From Chloroflexota bacterium (GTDB lineage: Bacteria > Chloroflexota > Ktedonobacteria > Ktedonobacterales > Ktedonobacteraceae): a stretch of DNA of 34,285 nucleotides. Under the pieces are notes generated by a model. It was not told the DNA's origin. It worked only from the letters and a program-made list of their open reading frames with translations, and ran no database searches. Position numbers and translations under genes: made by a program. Positions 10,407 to 32,859 of this stretch are shown one piece after another; within the stretch, counting starts at the first letter, position 1, and each line of letters begins with the position of its first letter. The stretch is from positions 1 through 34,285 of the forward strand of contig CADDZH010000053.1 of assembly GCA_902812455.1 (NCBI GenBank), in the 5' to 3' direction.

Positions 10407-10970
10407 CTACTGGCCCACAGGCTCATCCGGGAAAGTGATATTAGACCCCCAGGGAGCGGGCTGATCGTGCTCCTCTATCTCTTGATAGAGGGGCGATTCG
10501 GCCATTTGAGCGAATTCTCTCAAGCGCGGTAATACCGGCAGCTCGCGTCCCAATTGCTGGAGCAAACCTGCCAGGCCTCCTCCTGGTACTTCCTCAACGC
10601 TCATTTGTACAATCCTGGAGTCGTCAAACGTATATAAGGCGTGTACCTGTGGCAAGGAAACAGCGAGGCCGGTCGCCTGTATCAAGGGGACTCCTAACAT
10701 TGGCAAGGCAAGGTCATGAGAATGAGTGCCGCTTATTTGAATGAGCGATTCTACCTTATCCCCTTCTTCATGAACATCACTCAAATTATATGAGAAGTCT
10801 GGCATAGCATCTTCCAGCTCGCTCTGGATGGCTAAAAACTCCTCCCTATCGATGGGCTGTTGGGTCCAACCACTGAAGGTAAAGTTATCGGCCATGTAAT
10901 GAGCGGCCAGAGCCTGGTCTCCCGATTGCAATGCCGTTATGAATGCTTTCACGATCTCAGTTTTATTCAT
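10407..10970 (-). CDS. NTF2/SnoaL-like fold protein
   Basis: The 187-residue protein opens with EIVKAFITALQSGDQALAAHYMADNFTFSGW, the typical first helices of SnoaL/NTF2-like proteins in which a cone-shaped pocket binds small molecules. LAIQSELEDAMPDFSYNLSDVHEEGDKVESLIQISGTH is the matching beta-sheet section. The start is chosen at ATG 10970 because GTGAGGGAAAAG lies directly upstream; a longer frame to 11003 lacks such a site and would add 11 residues. The C-terminal 50 residues, with GGGLAGLLQQLGRELP, are outside the fold. Family members are enzymes such as polyketide cyclases or ester cyclases, or simple binding proteins; which applies here is unknown. It ends 3 bp from the convergent stress-protein gene. 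Confidence 0.72.
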   Translation of the reverse strand: MNKTEIVKAFITALQSGDQALAAHYMADNFTFSGWTQQPIDREEFLAIQSELEDAMPDFSYNLSDVHEEGDKVESLIQISGTHSHDLALPMLGVPLIQATGLAVSLPQVHALYTFDDSRIVQMSVEEVPGGGLAGLLQQLGRELPVLPRLREFAQMAESPLYQEIEEHDQPAPWGSNITFPDEPVGQ

Positions 10971-11054
10971 GGTATCTTTTCCCTCACTTACGATACGATG
11001 CAATACATGCTTTGCGAATTAGGCCTTTATCCTTTGGTGTGATCTACGAGGGCA

Positions 11055-11097
11055 GGCCGATCAATCGGCGGTGGCCACGATAAATCGGGCCCTACGG
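11055..11097. repeat. Dispersed GATAAATCGG core module
   Basis: This is a solo copy of the core module GGCCGATCAATCGG-CGGTGGCCACGATAAATCGG-GCCCTACGG found in family 1 MITE-like elements. The ends are inverted (CCGAT...ATCGG) and can fold. It lies between the NTF2-like and the F420 oxidoreductase genes without the surrounding MITE ends. Confidence 0.8.
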
Positions 11098-11137
11098 CTT
11101 ACCTGCAAGGATGGAGAGCCTGCAAATTTCTTCTCTA

Positions 11138-11220
11138 ACGTGTACACGTATAACACTTGAAGAAAGGTATGCTTAGAAATAAGCATCTTTATGCGCGTAA
11201 GCGCAATGAGGTGTTATACT
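11138..11220 (+). promoter_or_regulatory. Nested inverted repeats upstream of F420-type oxidoreductase
   Basis: A 12-bp palindrome ACGTGTACACGT (11138-11149) is followed by an outer 8-bp arm TATAACAC (11149-11156) that pairs exactly with GTGTTATA (11211-11218). Inside are two perfect hairpins: ATGCTTA-GAAA-TAAGCAT (11169-11186), extendable by AAAG/CTTT with a 2-nt bulge, and TGCGC-GTAA-GCGCA (11192-11205). Both loops fit GNRA. An extended -10 TG-T-TATACT at 11212-11220 overlaps the outer arm. Either this is a structured leader RNA transcribed from TATAAC near 11149, or the repeats are operator DNA at a promoter starting near 11227. The sequence alone does not decide. Confidence 0.5.
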
Positions 11221-11263
11221 ATAGCCTAGATAGTCATGAAAGGAAGCAGAGAGGAGCGACAAG

Positions 11264-12196
11264 ATGAAGTTTGGCGTATTTCTACCGATTTCGGGCCGCG
11301 CTACCGGGCCTGATACCCTGAAAGAGGCGGCGCAAAGTGCGGAAGCTCAAGGCTTCGAGGCAGTCTGGTCGGCCGATCGCGTGGTCACTCCCTGGCAGAT
11401 CAATACCTTCTATCCATACAGCGAGAATCACGAGTTTATTGTTCCGCCCGATAGACCTTTCCTGGATTCGTTCACCTGCCTGGCCTTCCTGGCTGCCTGC
11501 ACCGAGAAGATCAGGCTGGGCATCAGCGTACTGGTACTGCCCTATCGCCATCCCCTCTACTGGACGCGAGTGGCGGCTTCTATCGAACGGCTATCCAATG
11601 GACGGCTGATCATGGGTATCGGCGTCGGGTGGATGGAAGAGGAGTTTGCGGCCCTGGGAGTGCCATTCAAGGATAGGGGCAAAATGACCGATGAGCAACT
11701 CGAGATCGTTGCTCACCTCTGGAGCGAGGAGCATATCAGCTACAACGGCCAGTTCTATCGCTTCCAGGATGTGGCCTTTTATCCCAAGCCGATCCAGCAG
11801 CCGCGCATCCCGATCTGGGTCGGTGGTGAGGGTATTGCGGCACAGCGACGTACCGCGAAGTATGGCGACGCCTGGTTTCCATACTATATCACGATCACAC
11901 CCAAAGAGTTACGGGCAGGCTTTGATAATGTCTTGCGTATGGCTGCAGAGTATGGACGCGACCCACAGCAAATCCACTTTACTGCCTGCCGGCAGATCGA
12001 AGTGACGCGCGAACCTATCCCGCAAGATGAGAACTACCTGCGCGGCACGCCACAGCAACTGGTGGAAGCGCTCAAACCCTACCGCGACATTGGGCTTGAG
12101 CACCTCGCCCTCCAGTTCATCGTTCCGCGCTGGCCAGAGCGTGTGGAGCAGATCGAGCGCTTCGCCCAGGAAGTGATGCCTCACTTCCGGGAGTGA
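11264..12196 (+). CDS. LLM-class F420-dependent oxidoreductase
   Basis: The 310-residue protein is a bacterial luciferase-like TIM barrel of the group using coenzyme F420. It begins MKFGVFLPISGRATGPDTLKE, with AEAQGFEAVWSADRVV next, then LAACTEKIRLGISVLVLPYRHPL and GRLIMGIGVGWMEEEFAALGV, all standard for the TIGR03619-like subfamily. The segment IPIWVGGEGIAAQRRTAKYGDAW closes the barrel. Flavin versus F420 use is inferred from subfamily resemblance; F420-using enzymes are common in Chloroflexota. The substrate is unknown. The start ATG at 11264 is preceded by AGAGGAG about 8 nt upstream. The gene stands alone and sits behind an unusual inverted-repeat region that is likely its control element. 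Confidence 0.88.
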   Translation: MKFGVFLPISGRATGPDTLKEAAQSAEAQGFEAVWSADRVVTPWQINTFYPYSENHEFIVPPDRPFLDSFTCLAFLAACTEKIRLGISVLVLPYRHPLYWTRVAASIERLSNGRLIMGIGVGWMEEEFAALGVPFKDRGKMTDEQLEIVAHLWSEEHISYNGQFYRFQDVAFYPKPIQQPRIPIWVGGEGIAAQRRTAKYGDAWFPYYITITPKELRAGFDNVLRMAAEYGRDPQQIHFTACRQIEVTREPIPQDENYLRGTPQQLVEALKPYRDIGLEHLALQFIVPRWPERVEQIERFAQEVMPHFRE

Positions 12197-15293: not shown

Positions 15294-16127
15294 ATGCAGG
15301 TCAAACGGACCTTGAACATCCAGATGCCTCTGGCGTTCATACTTTGCTTTCTCGCGGCCTGTGGCGCATTGCCATCTGTGACGGTCAATGGCACGCCGGT
15401 GATATCGCCCTCCAGTCCATCCAGCCAGGCCACGCCGCAGCTCAATATGTGGTACAAGGCGGCGCCGGGCGTCGATATTCGCTATGAAGACTGGAAAGGC
15501 CCTGGCGGCGACGAAGATACGGTCACTATCGTTCGTTTCGATTTGCATTACGTTGCGTTGAGTGTCGCCTACCAGCCTGATCATCCTTTGCTCATGAAGG
15601 AGTGGATGCAGCAGGAGCATGCCATTGCCATCATCAACGGTGGTTACTTCGATGCCGATGACCATGCTACGGCCCTGGTTGTCTCTAACGGGCAGGCTTT
15701 CGGGGAATCGTACAACGGCTTTGGCGGGATGCTCTCGGTTGATGCCCAGGGGCAGACCACCCTGCGCTCGCTGCAACAGCAGCCCTATGATCCTGGTAAC
15801 GAGCAGTTGGAGCAGGCGACCCAATCATCTCCCATGCTGGTGCTGGATGGCAAAGCCACGCAATTTTCCTCGGATGCCTCAAGCTCGCGTCGCAGCATTG
15901 TGGCTATGGATAAGCAAGGACGCCTGCTCTTCATCGTTAGCCCCAACAATGCCTTCTCGCTGGGTGAGCTGGCGGACCTGCTCGTCTCTTCAGACCTCTC
16001 CATAGTAGCGGCCCTTAATCTTGATGGCGGCGCCTCAACCGGCCTGTATGTGAACGCGGGTCGCCAGCACATCGCGATTGACTCGGCGACAAGATTGCCA
16101 TTGGTTGTGGTCGTCAAAACGAGGTAA
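15294..16127 (+). CDS. Lipoprotein with phosphodiester glycosidase (NAGPA-like) domain
   Basis: The 277-residue product has a lipoprotein signal peptide: basic MQVKR, hydrophobic MPLAFILCFLAAC with the lipobox LAAC (Cys23). The mature part contains AIAIINGGYFDADD, VVSNGQAFGESYNGFGGMLSV, SSRRSIVAMDKQGRLLFIV and ALNLDGGASTGLYV, in the order typical of phosphodiester glycosidase (NAGPA/DUF2233) domains. Such enzymes cleave sugar-phosphodiester bonds in glycans or wall polymers; the substrate here is unknown. The start is ATG 15294, 4 bp after the hydrolase stop; it lacks a good ribosome binding site and may rely on translational coupling. An earlier ATG at 15264 overlaps the hydrolase and would put extra residues before the signal peptide. 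Confidence 0.85.
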   Translation: MQVKRTLNIQMPLAFILCFLAACGALPSVTVNGTPVISPSSPSSQATPQLNMWYKAAPGVDIRYEDWKGPGGDEDTVTIVRFDLHYVALSVAYQPDHPLLMKEWMQQEHAIAIINGGYFDADDHATALVVSNGQAFGESYNGFGGMLSVDAQGQTTLRSLQQQPYDPGNEQLEQATQSSPMLVLDGKATQFSSDASSSRRSIVAMDKQGRLLFIVSPNNAFSLGELADLLVSSDLSIVAALNLDGGASTGLYVNAGRQHIAIDSATRLPLVVVVKTR

Positions 16128-17898: not shown

Positions 17899-19077
17899 TC
17901 AGAGCAGGCGGCGTATAGCCTGATAGCGCTCGGCAAATCGTTGGGGTGTAACACGGGGGTATCGGCCTTTTCCTAGCTGTGCCAGCACCTCCTGATATGC
18001 CTTGTCAAGTTCATCAAGCGTGATGATTCCCTGTTGAACAAGCAGCTTCACATCGGCGATGTCACGATTATTCCCCCGCTCTATCTTGCTCAGGGCGATA
18101 CTATAGAAGTCAAAATAGAACACATCAATCGACCCATAGCGACCTACAAAGCGAGCCTGAGCCTCCCATTGCGAAGGAAGGGGCATAAAATCCCCGGGAG
18201 CAGCAAACTCTATATTGATCTGCAAGCGTTCTATCAGCTTCTGAATAGCCACGATCAGGTCGCCTTCATTAGCCCCGTTTACCTGTACATCAATGTCTTC
18301 GGTAAAGCCGGAACGCACCCCTGAATGGACAAGAGCGGCTCCTCTCACTAGATAGAGGCGCCCAGGTTTATGAAAAGTTCGCCCTAATTCCTGAAGAAAA
18401 GACTCGATAGTTGTCTTATCCACACTACGTCGCATACTCATACATGACTCCTGCCCTTGACGTTCTTCTTCTGTTGACAGCAGGCGAGTAAGCACCGGCA
18501 AGGAAACTTTGTTATTATGACGCTTAATTTCTTCCTGAAAGAGAAGCTGGTCTACTTGATTCTGCCAATCACCAAGAAACGTGAATGGCAACCCCGTTCG
18601 CCTCTGCTCGGCATCTTGCAGCGCTAGAAGTCCACATACGCCATCATGTAAAGCTGGTGGCGGCAAGTGCCGCTCCTGCCAGAGATAGGCGAATGGCTGT
18701 TCGGGAAAATCAGGAGGATGCCCTAGAGCGATTGCCAGGCGTACTGACCATAATCTCTGGAGATAAAGTGTTGCCAGCGTGAGAACAGCAAGACGCTCTG
18801 CAACCTCCGGCTCACTTTCACGAAGAGCCTGTTGGACTGCTCCGGCAAGCTCCGGGTGTAATAGAAGCAGCGAAATGATAGCATCGCGTACACGTGGGTG
18901 CTCTTCACACCGGGCTAAACGCTGGAGTAGCACAACTGGCGATTGCTGATCTACTTTGGAGCTTTGATCAGCAGGCTCCAGGCCCACAAGATAGTGTACT
19001 CCCCAGGCGCGGAGCAGAGCGATGAGTTCGTCGACCTCGCTCGATGAAATTGACACACGACCGGCTGTTGTATCCAT
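17899..19077 (-). CDS. Helical-repeat protein fused to a nucleotidyltransferase-fold domain
   Basis: The C-terminal part from about residue 213 (MSMRRSVDKTTIESFLQELG) resembles DUF6036-type nucleotidyltransferase-fold proteins: GRLYLVRGAALVHSG (239-253) and GFTEDIDVQV (257-266) with acidic residues D261 and D263, then YGSIDVFYFDFYSIALSKIERGNNRDIADVKLL, a typical tail. The position corresponding to the usual GG has Arg245-Gly246, so the active site may be altered. Residues 1-205 are mostly helical with leucine-rich pairs (RDAIISLLLLHPELAGAVQQAL) and look like HEAT-type repeats; no family is recognised there. An internal Met near 213 suggests that two formerly separate genes were joined. GGAGG precedes ATG 19077. 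It is followed by csaA. Function unknown; nucleotidyltransferase toxins or antitoxins are one possibility. Confidence 0.68.
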   Translation of the reverse strand: MDTTAGRVSISSSEVDELIALLRAWGVHYLVGLEPADQSSKVDQQSPVVLLQRLARCEEHPRVRDAIISLLLLHPELAGAVQQALRESEPEVAERLAVLTLATLYLQRLWSVRLAIALGHPPDFPEQPFAYLWQERHLPPPALHDGVCGLLALQDAEQRRTGLPFTFLGDWQNQVDQLLFQEEIKRHNNKVSLPVLTRLLSTEEERQGQESCMSMRRSVDKTTIESFLQELGRTFHKPGRLYLVRGAALVHSGVRSGFTEDIDVQVNGANEGDLIVAIQKLIERLQINIEFAAPGDFMPLPSQWEAQARFVGRYGSIDVFYFDFYSIALSKIERGNNRDIADVKLLVQQGIITLDELDKAYQEVLAQLGKGRYPRVTPQRFAERYQAIRRLL

Positions 19078-21769: not shown

Positions 21770-21858
21770 CTGTCAACCTTCAGGAGGTGGATAACATGTA
21801 GTGGCCTCCCTTGTGGGGGCCAGGTTTTTATTCATCAAATGACATTGACGCAGCACTA
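21770..21858. repeat. Left member of a 10-kb-spaced inverted repeat
   Basis: 89 nt match the reverse complement of 31803-31892 (90 nt). Shared parts are CTGTCAACCTTCA, a 29-nt perfect block at 21796-21824 with GTAGTGGCCTCCCTTGTGGG inside, and GCACTAC at the far end; the segments between differ. Translated, both copies read a CSGLPCGGQ peptide, which could be a zinc motif remnant of a transposase N-terminus, but this is uncertain. The PLD gene stop codon lies in its end. Confidence 0.75.
21801..21829 (+). terminator. Possible intrinsic terminator after HD gene
   Basis: GGCCTCC-CTTGT-GGGGGCC forms a 7-bp stem with one T-G pair and is followed by AGGTTTTTATT. It is well placed to end transcription of the HD gene. 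It lies within the 29-nt block of the inverted repeat; the other copy lacks the T-run. Confidence 0.55.
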
Positions 21859-22995
21859 CGCGCTTTGCGAATCTGACCAGTCCTGCTGGAAAGTCTGCTG
21901 GAGGGTACTCAAAACGCCTTTATCTGAGACGATGATCCCCAGTTCCCGGTTCTGATCCAGCGATTCCGTAGAGATGTTCTCTGAACCAACAAAGGCTTTG
22001 CTGCTATCTACCAGGATCATCTTCGCGTGCATATAGAGATGCGTATCCTCACGAACCTGCACTCCTCCCGAGGTGATGGTAGCAATTCCCTGGCTGTTGC
22101 TGTCTCCCGATGAGCCACTCGGAGCCGGCAGGATCACCTCGACCTTGACGCCGCGCTTTACCGCATTGATGAGGGCCTGCTCGATACCGCTATCCTGCAT
22201 CTCCTCCGCCTCGATGAGTAGCGTATGGTGGGCGCTGTTAATCAGGGAGGTGAAGTCGTTCCGCGAATTGACCGGGCTAACAACGAGATTGGGATCGTTG
22301 AAATGGGCCGTTGTACGATTCCAATCAGCCTGGAAAATGGCGCTAACTGCCTGCACATCCTGCGGAATGCTATCGACAATGTCATATTCACGATTAGTGA
22401 CGCTGCTACTGCCGCCAAGAGCCGAGAGGGTAAAATTTGAGGTCATGATGAAGGCCGTCTTTCCGTCAATAATCATGCCCTTCTCATGCGTCAAAGAGAA
22501 GGCCGGGTCGGTGGTCTCTGTTTTAACGCCGGCTGCGCTCAGCTCACTCAATGTGCTTGAGCTACTCCCGCCTATGGGATGTGGCTCCAGCATGACGCGC
22601 ACATCTCTTCCCTGCTGAGCAGAGGCTTCCAGGGCGTTGATCACATCGTGATCGGTCAGCAGGTACATCTCCACCCAGACCGATTTCTGTGCCCCTCGAA
22701 TAGCGTTGATAATAAAACCATCGCCCGCTTGAGGCTCGACAAACACCTCCACGCCATGCACCCCGGCGCCCGGATTGCAATTTGCCTGGCACTGGCTGCT
22801 ACCTGGTAGGCCCCCACCAGTACTGATCCCCCCACTACCATTGAGGCCAGGAATGGAAATGGGAATATTAGAAATGCTGATGGTATGCCTTCCCAGGAGG
22901 AAGTACAATGCCAGAATGATAAGTAGGAGAACAATACCGCTTCCAAGAGTAGAACGAGCCGACCTTCTATACGATCTTCTGTATCTTCGAGGCAT
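21856..22995 (-). CDS. Membrane-anchored phospholipase D-like protein
   Basis: The 379-residue protein has an Arg-rich N-terminus (MPRRYRRSYRRSAR) and one membrane helix (about 19-35), then a Gly/Ser linker. Two HKD motifs mark the phospholipase D superfamily: THEKGMIID (H170, K172, D177) and MHAKMILVD (H323, K325, D330). They carry the following Asn and Ser/Glu positions in TSNFT and GSENIS. Such enzymes include cardiolipin synthases, nucleases and other phosphodiesterases; here the catalytic domain is predicted outside the membrane. No head-group can be assigned. The gene is divergent from the BNR-repeat protein. Its last codons and stop TAG lie in the end of the inverted repeat at 21770-21858. 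Confidence 0.9.
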   Translation of the reverse strand: MPRRYRRSYRRSARSTLGSGIVLLLIILALYFLLGRHTISISNIPISIPGLNGSGGISTGGGLPGSSQCQANCNPGAGVHGVEVFVEPQAGDGFIINAIRGAQKSVWVEMYLLTDHDVINALEASAQQGRDVRVMLEPHPIGGSSSSTLSELSAAGVKTETTDPAFSLTHEKGMIIDGKTAFIMTSNFTLSALGGSSSVTNREYDIVDSIPQDVQAVSAIFQADWNRTTAHFNDPNLVVSPVNSRNDFTSLINSAHHTLLIEAEEMQDSGIEQALINAVKRGVKVEVILPAPSGSSGDSNSQGIATITSGGVQVREDTHLYMHAKMILVDSSKAFVGSENISTESLDQNRELGIIVSDKGVLSTLQQTFQQDWSDSQSA

Positions 22996-23310: not shown

Positions 23311-26300
23311 GTGAGTTCCACAAGTCAATCGTATGGTAGCCAGCAAACCGAGCAAACCTCAAACATGACACCTGCTTCAGATGGTGATACCCGGCCCCGT
23401 TTCTTTACCTCGCTCGAGTGGAGATCAATCGGGCCGTATCGCGGCGGGCGCGTCGTCGCGGTGGCAGGCGACCCGCAACATGCGGAAGTGTTTTATTTCG
23501 GTTCGACGGGAGGTGGTGTCTGGAAGACAAGCGATGGCGGAGTATACTGGGAGAATTGCTCCGATGGCTTCTTCAAGCGAGCCTCGGTTGGTGCGATAGC
23601 CGTTGCGCCCTCCGATCCCAACGTCATCTATGTTGGCATGGGCGAGACCTGCATTCGTGGCAATGTCTCTCATGGCGATGGCGTCTACAAGTCAACCGAC
23701 GCAGGGAAGACGTGGACGCACCTGGGCCTGGAGGACACGCGGCACATTGGCAAGATACGCATCCATCCCCAGAACCCCGACCTGGTATACGTTGCCGCAT
23801 TGGGGCACGCTCATGGGCCGAACAGGGAGCGGGGCATCTATCGCTCTCACGATGGCGGCAAGACCTGGGAGCACATCCTGTTCCGCGATGAGGATACCGG
23901 CTCTCACGACCTCGCCATGGATCCGAATAACCCGCGTATCCTGTACGCTGCCTTCTGGCGAGCAAGGCGATTGCCACATACCCTGCAGAGCGGCGGCGAA
24001 GGCTGCGGTATCTTCAAGTCAACCGACGGCGGGGATACATGGACTGAGATTACGCATAACAAGGGACTGCCGGAAGGAGCGGTAGGCAAGATCGGCATTG
24101 CCGTTTCAGGTGCAAAGCCAGATCGTGTCTGGGCCAATATCGAGGCCGAGAATGGCGCACTCTTCCGCTCTGATGATGGGGGCAACACGTGGGAGAGGCT
24201 CAGCGACGATCGCGACCTGCGCCTGCGTCCCTGGTACTACATGCATATTTACGCCGACCCGCAGGATCCGGAGACTGTCTGGATACTTGACGAGAAATGC
24301 TTCAAATCGACAGATGGCGGGAAGACCTTTTTCAGAGTTACCACTCCTCACGGAGATCACCACGACCTCTGGATCGACCCGCGCAATCCGCAGCGCATGA
24401 TCATGGGGGATGATGGCGGAGCAAGCGTAACCTTCAACGGCGGAGCAAGCTGGTCATCAATCTATAACCAGCCTACAGCCGAGTTCTATCACGTCACGAC
24501 CGACACCCAGGTGCCCTATCGCGTCTATGGAGCGCAGCAGGACAACAGCACCATCACTGTTCCCAGTCGCTCGCGGCTCGCAGCCATTGCCCTGGCCGAT
24601 TATTATGAGGTTGGCGGCGGTGAGAGTGGCTATATCGCGGTACGTCCTGACGATCCAAATATTGTGTACGCGGGAAGCTACCTGGGATATCTCACACGCT
24701 ATGACCATCGCACCGGGCAGTTGCGCGATATTACCGTCTGGCCGGAGATAACACAGGGAGCACCGGCAAAAGATGCCAGGTATCGTTTCCAGTGGACATT
24801 CCCGATCCTCCTCTCGCCTCATGATCCGAACGTCCTCTACGCTGCCGGCAACCACGTGTTCTGCTCAACAGACGAGGGAGGCAGTTGGGAGGAGATCAGC
24901 CCTGACCTGACACGCAACGACAAGAGCAAGATGGAGCCTTCTGGCGGCCCTATCACCAAAGACAATGTCGGCACCGAATACTATGGAACGATCTTTGCCT
25001 TCGCCGAGTCGCCACTGGAGCGCGGGCTGTTCTGGGCAGGCTCGGACGATGGGCTGGTGCATATCTCGCGCGATGGCGGCAAAAGCTGGCAGAATGTGAC
25101 TCCCGCAGACCTGCCCGAGTGGGCGCTGATCAGCATCATCGAGCCGTCGCCGCACGATCCGGCAACAGCCTATCTTGCCGCAACCCGCTACAAGCTCGAC
25201 GATTTCCAGCCCTATCTCTACAAAACCAATGACTATGGTAAAACCTGGACGAAGATTACGACCGGCCTCGCGGAGAATGTCTTTACTCGCGCGATCCGCG
25301 AAGACCCTGAGCGGCGTGGGCTGCTTTTCGCGGGAACTGAGACCGGCGTGCATGTTTCTTTCGACGATGGCGCACACTGGGAACCCTTGCAGTTGAACCT
25401 GCCAGCCGTGCCCATCCATGACCTCGTAATCAAGGATAGCGATCTGGTTGTGGCGACACATGGGCGCTCGTTCTGGATTCTGGATGATATTTCGCCGCTA
25501 CGCCAGTTGACAGATGAGGTACGTAGCGCCACGATCCACCTGTTCACGCCGCGCCCGTTCACTCGCTTCGCGGCGAGCGGTGGCTACCACTATCCGGCCA
25601 CCAAAGGCAAAAACTACAAGCACACAGGCGCATTCGTTGTCACCTACCGCCAGGAAGAGAAGCCCAGCGGCGAAAAAGTGGACAAATACCTCGATGCCGG
25701 GCAAAATCCACCCGATGGCGCTATCATCCACTACTTCTTCAAGGAGAAGCCGGAGGGTGAAGTTACACTTACGTTCCTCGATCAGAACGGCAAAGAGATC
25801 AAACGCTTCTCAAGTGAGGAAAGCAAGGAGCAAAAACAGGAGACGCCTGGAACCGGTGAGACGGGAGCCGGGAGCAAAGAAAAGAAAGATGAAAAAAAGG
25901 AGCCGCGCGTGCCAAAGGAGGCAGGTGCAAACCGCTTCGTCTGGAATACGCGCTATGCTGATGCCACCAAGATCGAGGGAGATGGTGGCGAAGATATGAA
26001 AGTTGAACCGCCTGTCCCTCCAGGAACCTACCAGGTGCGGCTTAATGTTGGCGATCAGAGCTATACAGCTTCCTTCGAGGTCCGCAAGGACCCGAACACA
26101 GCAACCACGCAGGAGGAGCTACAGGCGCGCTTCGAGCTGATGATGGCGATTCGCGACAAGGTCTCGGAGAGCCATAGCGCCATCAACACGCTGCGCGATA
26201 TGCGCAGGCAGGTCGAGGAGTGGGAACGGCGTGCCAAAGGAAACGATGCCTATGAAGCGATAGCAGAGCTGGGGAAGCAGATCAAGCAAAAGCTGGCTGC

Positions 26301-26577
26301 GATCGAGGAAGAGTTGTTCCAGGTCAAGGCCAAGGACCAGATGGATGTACTGGATTATCCCATGAAGCTCGACGCTAAACTCATCTACCTGTTCACCGTG
26401 GTTTCCAGCGCAGATGCCGCGCCAACACGTCAATCCGAGCGGGTCTTCAAAGAACTCTCGCAGCGATTGGATGAGCAGATCCAGCGGCTGCGCGACCTGG
26501 TTGGTACAGAGATAGCGACATTCAACAAGCTGATCCGGGAATCGAGTTTGCCGGCCATCGTTTCGACCGTAGCCTGA
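23311..26577 (+). CDS. Sortilin/VPS10-like BNR (Asp-box) repeat protein
   Basis: The 1088-residue protein has about ten Asp-box motifs of the type S-x-D-x-G-x-T-W: KSTDAGKTW, RSHDGGKTW, KSTDGGDTW, RSDDGGNTW, KSTDGGKTF, CSTDEGGSW, SRDGGKSW, KTNDYGKTW and others. These indicate one or two large beta-propellers as in the VPS10/sortilin N-terminal domain. After the propeller region come a proline- and lysine/glutamate-rich linker (about residues 820-880) and a helical coiled-coil-like C-terminal part (SESHSAINTLRDMRRQVEEW). It resembles a bacterial family of roughly 1000-residue WD40/YVTN/BNR-like proteins of unknown function. No signal peptide is visible in the N-terminus (MSSTSQSYGSQQTEQTSNM). 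The start is GTG 23311 with AAGGAG at 23297-23302. The stop TGA overlaps the terminal repeat of the next element. Confidence 0.9.
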   Translation: MSSTSQSYGSQQTEQTSNMTPASDGDTRPRFFTSLEWRSIGPYRGGRVVAVAGDPQHAEVFYFGSTGGGVWKTSDGGVYWENCSDGFFKRASVGAIAVAPSDPNVIYVGMGETCIRGNVSHGDGVYKSTDAGKTWTHLGLEDTRHIGKIRIHPQNPDLVYVAALGHAHGPNRERGIYRSHDGGKTWEHILFRDEDTGSHDLAMDPNNPRILYAAFWRARRLPHTLQSGGEGCGIFKSTDGGDTWTEITHNKGLPEGAVGKIGIAVSGAKPDRVWANIEAENGALFRSDDGGNTWERLSDDRDLRLRPWYYMHIYADPQDPETVWILDEKCFKSTDGGKTFFRVTTPHGDHHDLWIDPRNPQRMIMGDDGGASVTFNGGASWSSIYNQPTAEFYHVTTDTQVPYRVYGAQQDNSTITVPSRSRLAAIALADYYEVGGGESGYIAVRPDDPNIVYAGSYLGYLTRYDHRTGQLRDITVWPEITQGAPAKDARYRFQWTFPILLSPHDPNVLYAAGNHVFCSTDEGGSWEEISPDLTRNDKSKMEPSGGPITKDNVGTEYYGTIFAFAESPLERGLFWAGSDDGLVHISRDGGKSWQNVTPADLPEWALISIIEPSPHDPATAYLAATRYKLDDFQPYLYKTNDYGKTWTKITTGLAENVFTRAIREDPERRGLLFAGTETGVHVSFDDGAHWEPLQLNLPAVPIHDLVIKDSDLVVATHGRSFWILDDISPLRQLTDEVRSATIHLFTPRPFTRFAASGGYHYPATKGKNYKHTGAFVVTYRQEEKPSGEKVDKYLDAGQNPPDGAIIHYFFKEKPEGEVTLTFLDQNGKEIKRFSSEESKEQKQETPGTGETGAGSKEKKDEKKEPRVPKEAGANRFVWNTRYADATKIEGDGGEDMKVEPPVPPGTYQVRLNVGDQSYTASFEVRKDPNTATTQEELQARFELMMAIRDKVSESHSAINTLRDMRRQVEEWERRAKGNDAYEAIAELGKQIKQKLAAIEEELFQVKAKDQMDVLDYPMKLDAKLIYLFTVVSSADAAPTRQSERVFKELSQRLDEQIQRLRDLVGTEIATFNKLIRESSLPAIVSTVA

Positions 26578-26729
26578 TGAATTTTGACACCCGAAGAGGG
26601 GAATGGCATGGAGGGGAGGAGCGTGAGGGCAAGCACAAGGCCCCCACAGCACCTCCCTGCCACTCCTTGCCCCTACAGGTTACGAAAGCGTTTCCTCGTT
26701 ACCGGTTTTGATCGGAAAAGTTCATCAGG
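26573..26729. repeat. MITE-like element, family 2 copy 1
   Basis: The left end CCTGATGAATTTTGACACCC and the right end GATCGGAAAAGTTCATCAGG share an inverted repeat of about 11 bp (CCTGATGAA with a mismatch just inside). A GCAAGCACAAGG-type module (26625-26677) is nested inside. The related element at 33157-33327 has the same ends but a different inner module. The left end overlaps the stop codon of the BNR-repeat gene. Confidence 0.7.
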
Positions 26730-32553: not shown

Positions 32554-32859
32554 CTAGGGCGATTCGGCGACGACGTGAAACGCCCCCGGGGTGGCCTCCG
32601 TGCATAGTCCCTCGAGCCTTTTGATTCCCTCCCTGGCATGATGGTCGTTTCGCATGACTTCCACCGCTTCCATGCTATTCCATGGAACAAATGAGTAGAA
32701 CAGAGTGGGGTCCGACGTACTCTGGATGAGAACTCCCTTGCCGGGAGGATCGGACAGCGCATGGAAGGCCTCTCCTAGGTCCTTCCATGCGCTGATGAAC
32801 GCTTGTTGTCGACCTTCTTGCACGCGCCACGCGGCGAGCGTGTATACCATTTCCTTCAT
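32554..32859 (-). CDS. ABM-like (antibiotic biosynthesis monooxygenase fold) protein
   Basis: The 101-residue protein begins MKEMVYTLAAWRVQEGRQQAF, continues ISAWKDLGEAFHALSDPPGK and LIQSTSDPTLFYSFVPWNSMEAVEVMR, the order of the dimeric alpha/beta ferredoxin-like ABM domain. Members oxidise small aromatic compounds, degrade haem, or have no known activity. The start is ATG 32859, with GGAG about 10 nt upstream; a TTG at 32874 in the same frame is less likely. An inverted repeat TTGACATTCGTCAA lies at 32922-32935 upstream and may be an operator. The substrate is unknown. Confidence 0.8.
   Translation of the reverse strand: MKEMVYTLAAWRVQEGRQQAFISAWKDLGEAFHALSDPPGKGVLIQSTSDPTLFYSFVPWNSMEAVEVMRNDHHAREGIKRLEGLCTEATPGAFHVVAESP

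Follow-up and report, generated by a model that had tools for sequence, protein, structure and literature searches.

The gap of 293 bp between a leftward SnoaL-like gene and a rightward gene for an F420-dependent oxidoreductase (start at 11264) harbors a nest of inverted repeats, in which a 9-bp outer repeat encloses two hairpins and is preceded by a 12-bp palindrome. This study confirmed that the nest is real and that all the elements named for it are there. Though the feature is real and tidy, its likeliest function is an ordinary one. None of the relatives searched has it, and the 3' arm of its outer repeat reads as a promoter; we tentatively favor, at a little under an even chance, an extended -10 promoter with dyad operators placed between the two divergent genes. 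The window, as used here, is the whole stretch of 34,285 nucleotides that was analysed, and the features under discussion are as follows.

11138..11149, no strand: 12-bp palindrome ACGTGTACACGT, with a two-base overlap with the 5' arm
11148..11156, forward strand: 5' arm of the outer inverted repeat, GTATAACAC, 9 bp
11169..11186, forward strand: hairpin or dyad 1, ATGCTTA-GAAA-TAAGCAT (7-4-7)
11193..11206, forward strand: hairpin or dyad 2, TGCGC-GTAA-GCGCA (5-bp stem, 5-4-5)
11211..11219, forward strand: 3' arm of the outer inverted repeat, GTGTTATAC, 9 bp
11212..11220, forward strand: predicted extended -10, TGTTATACT (TG-T-TATACT), most of the 3' arm plus one base
11248..11256, forward strand: ribosome-binding site region AGAGAGGAG, purine-rich, read from the sequence
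10407..10970, reverse strand: SnoaL-like protein gene (PF12680 and PF07366, matched on 10407-11003), divergent from the oxidoreductase gene
11264..12196, forward strand: downstream gene for an LLM-class F420-dependent oxidoreductase of the TIGR03619 family, 310 aa (Pfam PF00296, NCBIfam TIGR03619)

Gene setting

The oxidoreductase matched TIGR03619 with 239.2 bits against a cut-off of 166.9, and the identity that had been given to the downstream gene from the letters alone was correct. Judged by the closest relatives of this protein, which align from its residue 1 or 2, the contig is Ktedonobacteria-like; the nearest proteins are up to 87% identical and derive mostly from metagenome contigs (best 120 of 1234). 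The SnoaL-like gene probably starts at the ATG at 10970, the list of open reading frames extending it to a TTG at 11003. Toward the SnoaL-like gene, two more dyads, GCCGAT-CA-ATCGGC and CGAT-AA-ATCG, were noticed at 11056-11087 with their centres 20 bp apart, which is two helical turns; a direct repeat (D1) lies there, the dyads themselves being read from the sequence, and they may form a tandem operator for that side.

Architecture of the nest

The earlier note had described an outer stem of 8 bp; the stem is present, but its arms are of 9 bp (11148-11156 and 11211-11219), and with one G-U pair the outer RNA stem becomes 11 bp (11148-11158 with 11209-11219). The two hairpins with GAAA and GTAA loops lie inside the outer repeat as had been reported, the stem of hairpin 1 being lengthened by AAGG/CTTT beyond a one-base bulge, and the palindrome likewise stands ahead of the stem, overlapping its left end. 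The 72 nt from 11148 to 11219 are predicted to fold into a three-way junction. On one and the same strand both loops conform to GNRA, and wobble pairs account for 2 of the 27 pairs, both of them favoring the forward strand (-27.9 versus -21.8 kcal/mol). The segment is AT-rich, with a GC of 0.375, and lies beside a GC-richer block, and its arms, TAACAC...GTGTTA, have TA on both outer sides.

Promoter-like sites and possible dyad operators

Promoter-like sites were scored with simple, unfitted weights of the E. coli type. On this scale TGTTATACT reached 9.99, which is the best score in the gap on both strands and is equalled or exceeded at 23 of the 68,470 positions of the window, itself included. 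The first base of its hexamer is at -49 from the start codon, and no -35 is recognisable. Transcription of the oxidoreductase gene is therefore predicted, from this site, to start at about 11228, downstream of the whole structure, so that the junction would fall outside the mRNA and the leader would be of 36 nt. The second-best site in the gap, TGGTATCTT at 10973 on the forward strand, scored 8.32, a value reached by 91 of the 68,470 positions; it sits at the start of the leftward gene, and its transcript would contain the structure. Forward-strand sites between 10973 and the structure scored 5.87 at most, and a stricter scan that needed both hexamers found no promoter.

The nearest relative among the 47 genomes of the class examined (locus L094 in genome G022, 80% protein identity) possesses a similar site at a near-equal distance, TTGCCC-17-TACACT with TG, whose hexamer is at -45 as against -49 in the window, and it does so without the structure. 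Among the 7 relatives scored, a strong site at this distance was observed only in L094, with a weak one in L003 (5.97, at -53), and of 19 relatives searched with a simple pattern, two showed a TATA-like site, namely L094 and, at -170, L100. For two Ktedonobacteria genomes, mechanical gene calling gave 183 and 167 upstream regions, in which TATAMT is over-represented at 25-75 nt ahead of the called starts (19 versus 3.6 expected, and 19 versus 2.8); a similar excess continues through the bins as far as -150 and -125, and it therefore backs AT-rich promoter gaps more than an exact position.

On these grounds, the segment may serve as a promoter and operator region in the gap that separates the SnoaL-like gene from the F420-dependent oxidoreductase gene. 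The 3' arm of the so-called outer stem would then be most of the extended -10, one without a recognisable -35, and the inner dyads would have their centres about 28 and about 50 bp ahead of the predicted start, spaced by 22 bp or about two helical turns, with the palindrome centred about 84 bp ahead of it. One or more dimeric transcription factors, encoded elsewhere, might bind these dyads and repress or activate the oxidoreductase gene, and the outer pairing would be partly coincidental or an extra half-site pair. Dyads of the 7-4-7 and 5-4-5 kind are usual operator shapes. Outer arms with 54 nt between them are an unusual operator geometry, and other points, too, count against the promoter with dyad operators: the closed stem nest is rarer than operators alone need explain, and the same-strand GNRA loops and wobble pairs hint at RNA. 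A Pfam scan of 28 proteins of the window recognised no DNA-binding regulator; its one match with a regulator's name, TrmB on 21856-22995, falls on a PLD-like domain.

The operator array around an extended -10, which the earlier note had offered as its second model, fits better than its first, with the best site of the gap in the 3' arm and a similar one in L094, but the palindrome that it had singled out is not enriched in the class: exact ACGTGTACACGT occurs at 5 sites in 5 of the 47 genomes, as against 17 sites for the backwards control. The exact hairpin-1 pattern, ATGCTTAN4TAAGCAT, was found in 0 of 47 genomes, and a class-wide operator dyad was rejected on both counts. Divergent twin promoters in the two arms were also rejected; the minus-strand arm, TGTTATACG, lacks the last T and is outside the top 12 sites. 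As for an intrinsic terminator, 0 were found in 10700-11700, and none is expected since both flanking genes are read outward from the gap. If the region is a promoter with dyad operators, it is routine and adds to the regulated genes known from the large LLM/F420 oxidoreductase group of Ktedonobacteria.

Fold stability and chance

The RNA fold of 11148-11219 is of -27.9 kcal/mol on the forward strand, compared with -11.83 (sd 2.48) for shuffles, so that z is -6.48 and none of 200 shuffles equals it; on the minus strand the values are -21.8 kcal/mol and z -5.46, and the DNA folds of the two strands gave -16.6 and -15.2 with z -6.77 and -5.85, all of these z values being flattered by boundaries that were picked on the stem. 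Over the wider 165 nt of 11100-11264, z was -2.32, and 5 of 200 shuffles were as good. Comparable GC-corrected folding of a 72-nt stretch was noticed in related DNA, with mechanically called genes, in 4 of 62 divergent gaps, in 9 of 50 convergent ones and in 23 of 223 between co-directional genes, and in 73 of 66,440 forward-strand windows stepped by 12; among the stepped windows of our own stretch, the GC-corrected residual was as low or lower in 9 of 22,810 and the raw energy as low in 892 of 22,810.

The branched nest was counted with criteria that were taken from the feature itself after it had been seen, namely 9-bp arms 40-90 apart around two hairpins with 4-nt loops and stems of at least 5 bp, one of at least 7. 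So defined, it occurs once in the 34-kb window; it is absent from 800 kb of two related genomes of Ktedonobacteria, taken as 40 stretches of 20 kb each, and from 100 shuffled windows and 20,000 shuffles of the 293-nt gap. On these gap, stepped-window and nest counts, stability alone is not exceptional for the group and the branched nest is unusual. Twenty-five strong folds elsewhere, viewed by eye, were mostly long single hairpins of the terminator type, and that at L132 branches too. The window's strongest GC-corrected folds are at 26596-26673 and 32722-32802, the former just past the end of a BNR-repeat gene (23311-26577), where it may be a terminator.

That three unrelated, short and common dyads merely happened to be nested in an AT-rich promoter gap, and were then singled out by a pattern-seeking reader, appears unlikely to us. 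Every part is common in the window, which holds 11 palindromes of 12 bp (that at 11138-11149 included), 13 nine-bp inverted pairs at the nest spacing (shuffle mean 6.25), and 47 hairpins with 4-nt loops and stems of at least 5 bp, 7 of them of at least 7 bp. With the hairpins held fixed and the 38-nt flanks shuffled, an enclosing 9-bp arm pair arose in 149 of 20,000 trials; the comparable folds in related gaps, and a first-stage selection across many windows, point the same way. The full nest, on the other hand, is absent from the shuffles and the related DNA, and as a whole it looks rarer than chance would give. One copy of the palindrome with two mismatches (TCGCGTACACGT) lies at 18884-18895, and two or more such matches arose in 4 of 100 shuffles; hairpin 1 has no second occurrence in the window with up to 3 mismatches.

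A possible structured RNA

The forward strand might instead specify a structured RNA, either a cis-acting leader of an oxidoreductase mRNA whose start lies upstream of 11138 or a small RNA of its own. The three-way junction would gate the ribosome-binding site; that site can pair with 11128-11136, closing the whole structure. We consider this rather unlikely. The stability of the fold (z -6.5, 0 of 200 shuffles) and the wobble pairs favor it, as do the loops, since GNRA, read on either strand, occurs in 3 of the window's 47 hairpins of at least 5 bp and 2 of those 3 are here on one strand, but wobble pairs are few at two of 27, and GNNA loops are stable in DNA hairpins too. In the fold of the full region TTCTTCTCT (11128-11136) does pair with AGAGAGGAG (11248-11256) around the junction, but a nine-pair helix of this kind is ordinary, 30 of 218 related genes having an equal one, and the longest Watson-Crick run to the zone is 5; a hidden ribosome-binding site was rejected accordingly. 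The site at 10973 is the one fair candidate start for a transcript that would contain the structure, but it scores below TGTTATACT (8.32 versus 9.99), its place is the start of the leftward gene, and the forward-strand sites that follow are those of 5.87 or less.

Searches for relatives of such an RNA came back empty. Rfam gave no match at the gathering score in the window and none at E up to 5 in 10980-11290, which bears out the earlier statement that no known riboswitch class is recognisable. A covariance model (R1) found nothing at E up to 1 in 47 Ktedonobacteria genomes, G022 among them, and nothing at E up to 0.5 in 400 Chloroflexota genomes, two overlapping sets, and since it was built on a single sequence with strict filters and no positive control, its empty result shows little. 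With the predicted start past 11220 and the outer repeat missing, at up to one mismatch, from loci L001-L100, the three-way-junction RNA that had been put forward at the outset is not supported. Cores of the hammerhead and of the purine riboswitch were not seen by eye and had no Rfam match, and an integron attC site (GTATAAC/GTTATAC) was dismissed for having no unpaired spacer, no second box pair and one mismatch per core.

We know of no riboswitch for coenzyme F420. Among the matches listed by a narrow search of the open-licence literature, none had both coenzyme F420 and riboswitch in its title or abstract, a weak argument that there is none; in the same literature nothing was returned for Ktedonobacter with transcription start site, and the only match for Ktedonobacter with riboswitch concerns, as listed, Earth's oxygenation. 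If the stems were transcribed and covarying, they would form an unknown RNA element beside an F420 enzyme. The most specific version is a lineage-restricted three-way-junction leader whose GNRA loops could make tertiary contacts and which responds to a metabolite or to temperature in controlling access to the oxidoreductase's ribosome-binding site; it would be a new regulatory RNA class, but is in our view very improbable.

Distribution in related genomes

In G022, DNA similarity to the window sets in no earlier than about 11249, right ahead of the start codon, and in the other class genomes that match this gene at about 11253 or later, with up to 6 candidates scored per genome; this agrees with the extended -10 promoter with dyad operators that we prefer. 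The structure is absent from the upstream DNA of L001-L003, L094, L096, L097 and L100, the outer repeat with up to 1 mismatch is in none of the loci L001-L100, and the exact outer repeat is in 0 of the 47 Ktedonobacteria genomes. A blastn search with 11100-11263 gave short matches only, in 5 of the 47 class genomes at E up to 0.1, which were judged to be chance, and no full-length match. The one at L089 (E 3.6e-4, 86% over 37 nt, covering hairpin 1 by half and hairpin 2 in full) was taken as chance because it looks by eye like coding DNA right behind a gene of sigma-factor type. Weak matches to 11105-11134, GCAAGGATGGAGAGCCTGCAAATTTCTTCT, were found in several Ktedonobacteria genomes (L082, L085, L090, L091, L093); these were rejected as a shared element, being mostly coding-looking by eye with no common structure visible.

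An absence of this kind from relatives would also be expected of a small non-autonomous insertion, resembling a miniature inverted-repeat transposable element (MITE), that landed in the gap between TA bases as TAACAC...GTGTTA and brought or overlapped the -10. Its inverted repeats with TA on both outer sides and its AT-rich composition beside a GC-richer block agree with this, but such an element ought to have copies, and there is no second one in the 34-kb window, no exact outer repeat or full-length blastn match in the 47 class genomes, no match in the plasmid and phage collections, and no viral contig with the exact two-hairpin pattern. Likewise, no transposase was found among the 28 window proteins scanned, and we regard an insertion as distinctly improbable.

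Two observations were made in G022 itself. In a divergent gap of that genome (L152, about 15485-15579), two tandem dyads TATGC-N5-GCATA lie just after a TATACT-like site; they are possibly an operator pair, and their half-site resembles that of hairpin 1 with a different spacing. The genome also harbors several very long near-perfect hairpins of about 20 to 40 bp, differing in sequence, apparently intergenic and long for terminators, for instance at L153 3481, L155 17089, L156 7177 and L158 6361, with GC-corrected z down to about -10.

Comparison with known systems

The nest shares with three-way-junction riboswitches of the purine type a closed stem with two hairpins in 72 nt, but here no core matches by eye or in Rfam and the predicted start is past the structure. 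With the long, terminator-like intergenic hairpins of Ktedonobacteria it has in common a strong GC-corrected fold in an intergenic gap; those, however, are mostly single long stems, whereas the nest consists of three short stems between divergent starts. Like a MITE with a TA target site, it has a terminal inverted repeat beside TA, but without a second copy in the 34-kb window. We prefer the likeness to extended -10 promoters of the sigma-70 type with dyad operators. No regulator was recognised among the proteins scanned and the spacing of the outer arms is unusual for an operator, but the predicted arrangement otherwise agrees: TG-N-TATACT lacking a clear -35, dyads near -28 and -50, a 36-nt leader, a purine-rich ribosome-binding site and, in TGTTATACT, the TGn followed by a TATAAT-like hexamer, suitably spaced from the start codon, by which such promoters are recognised.
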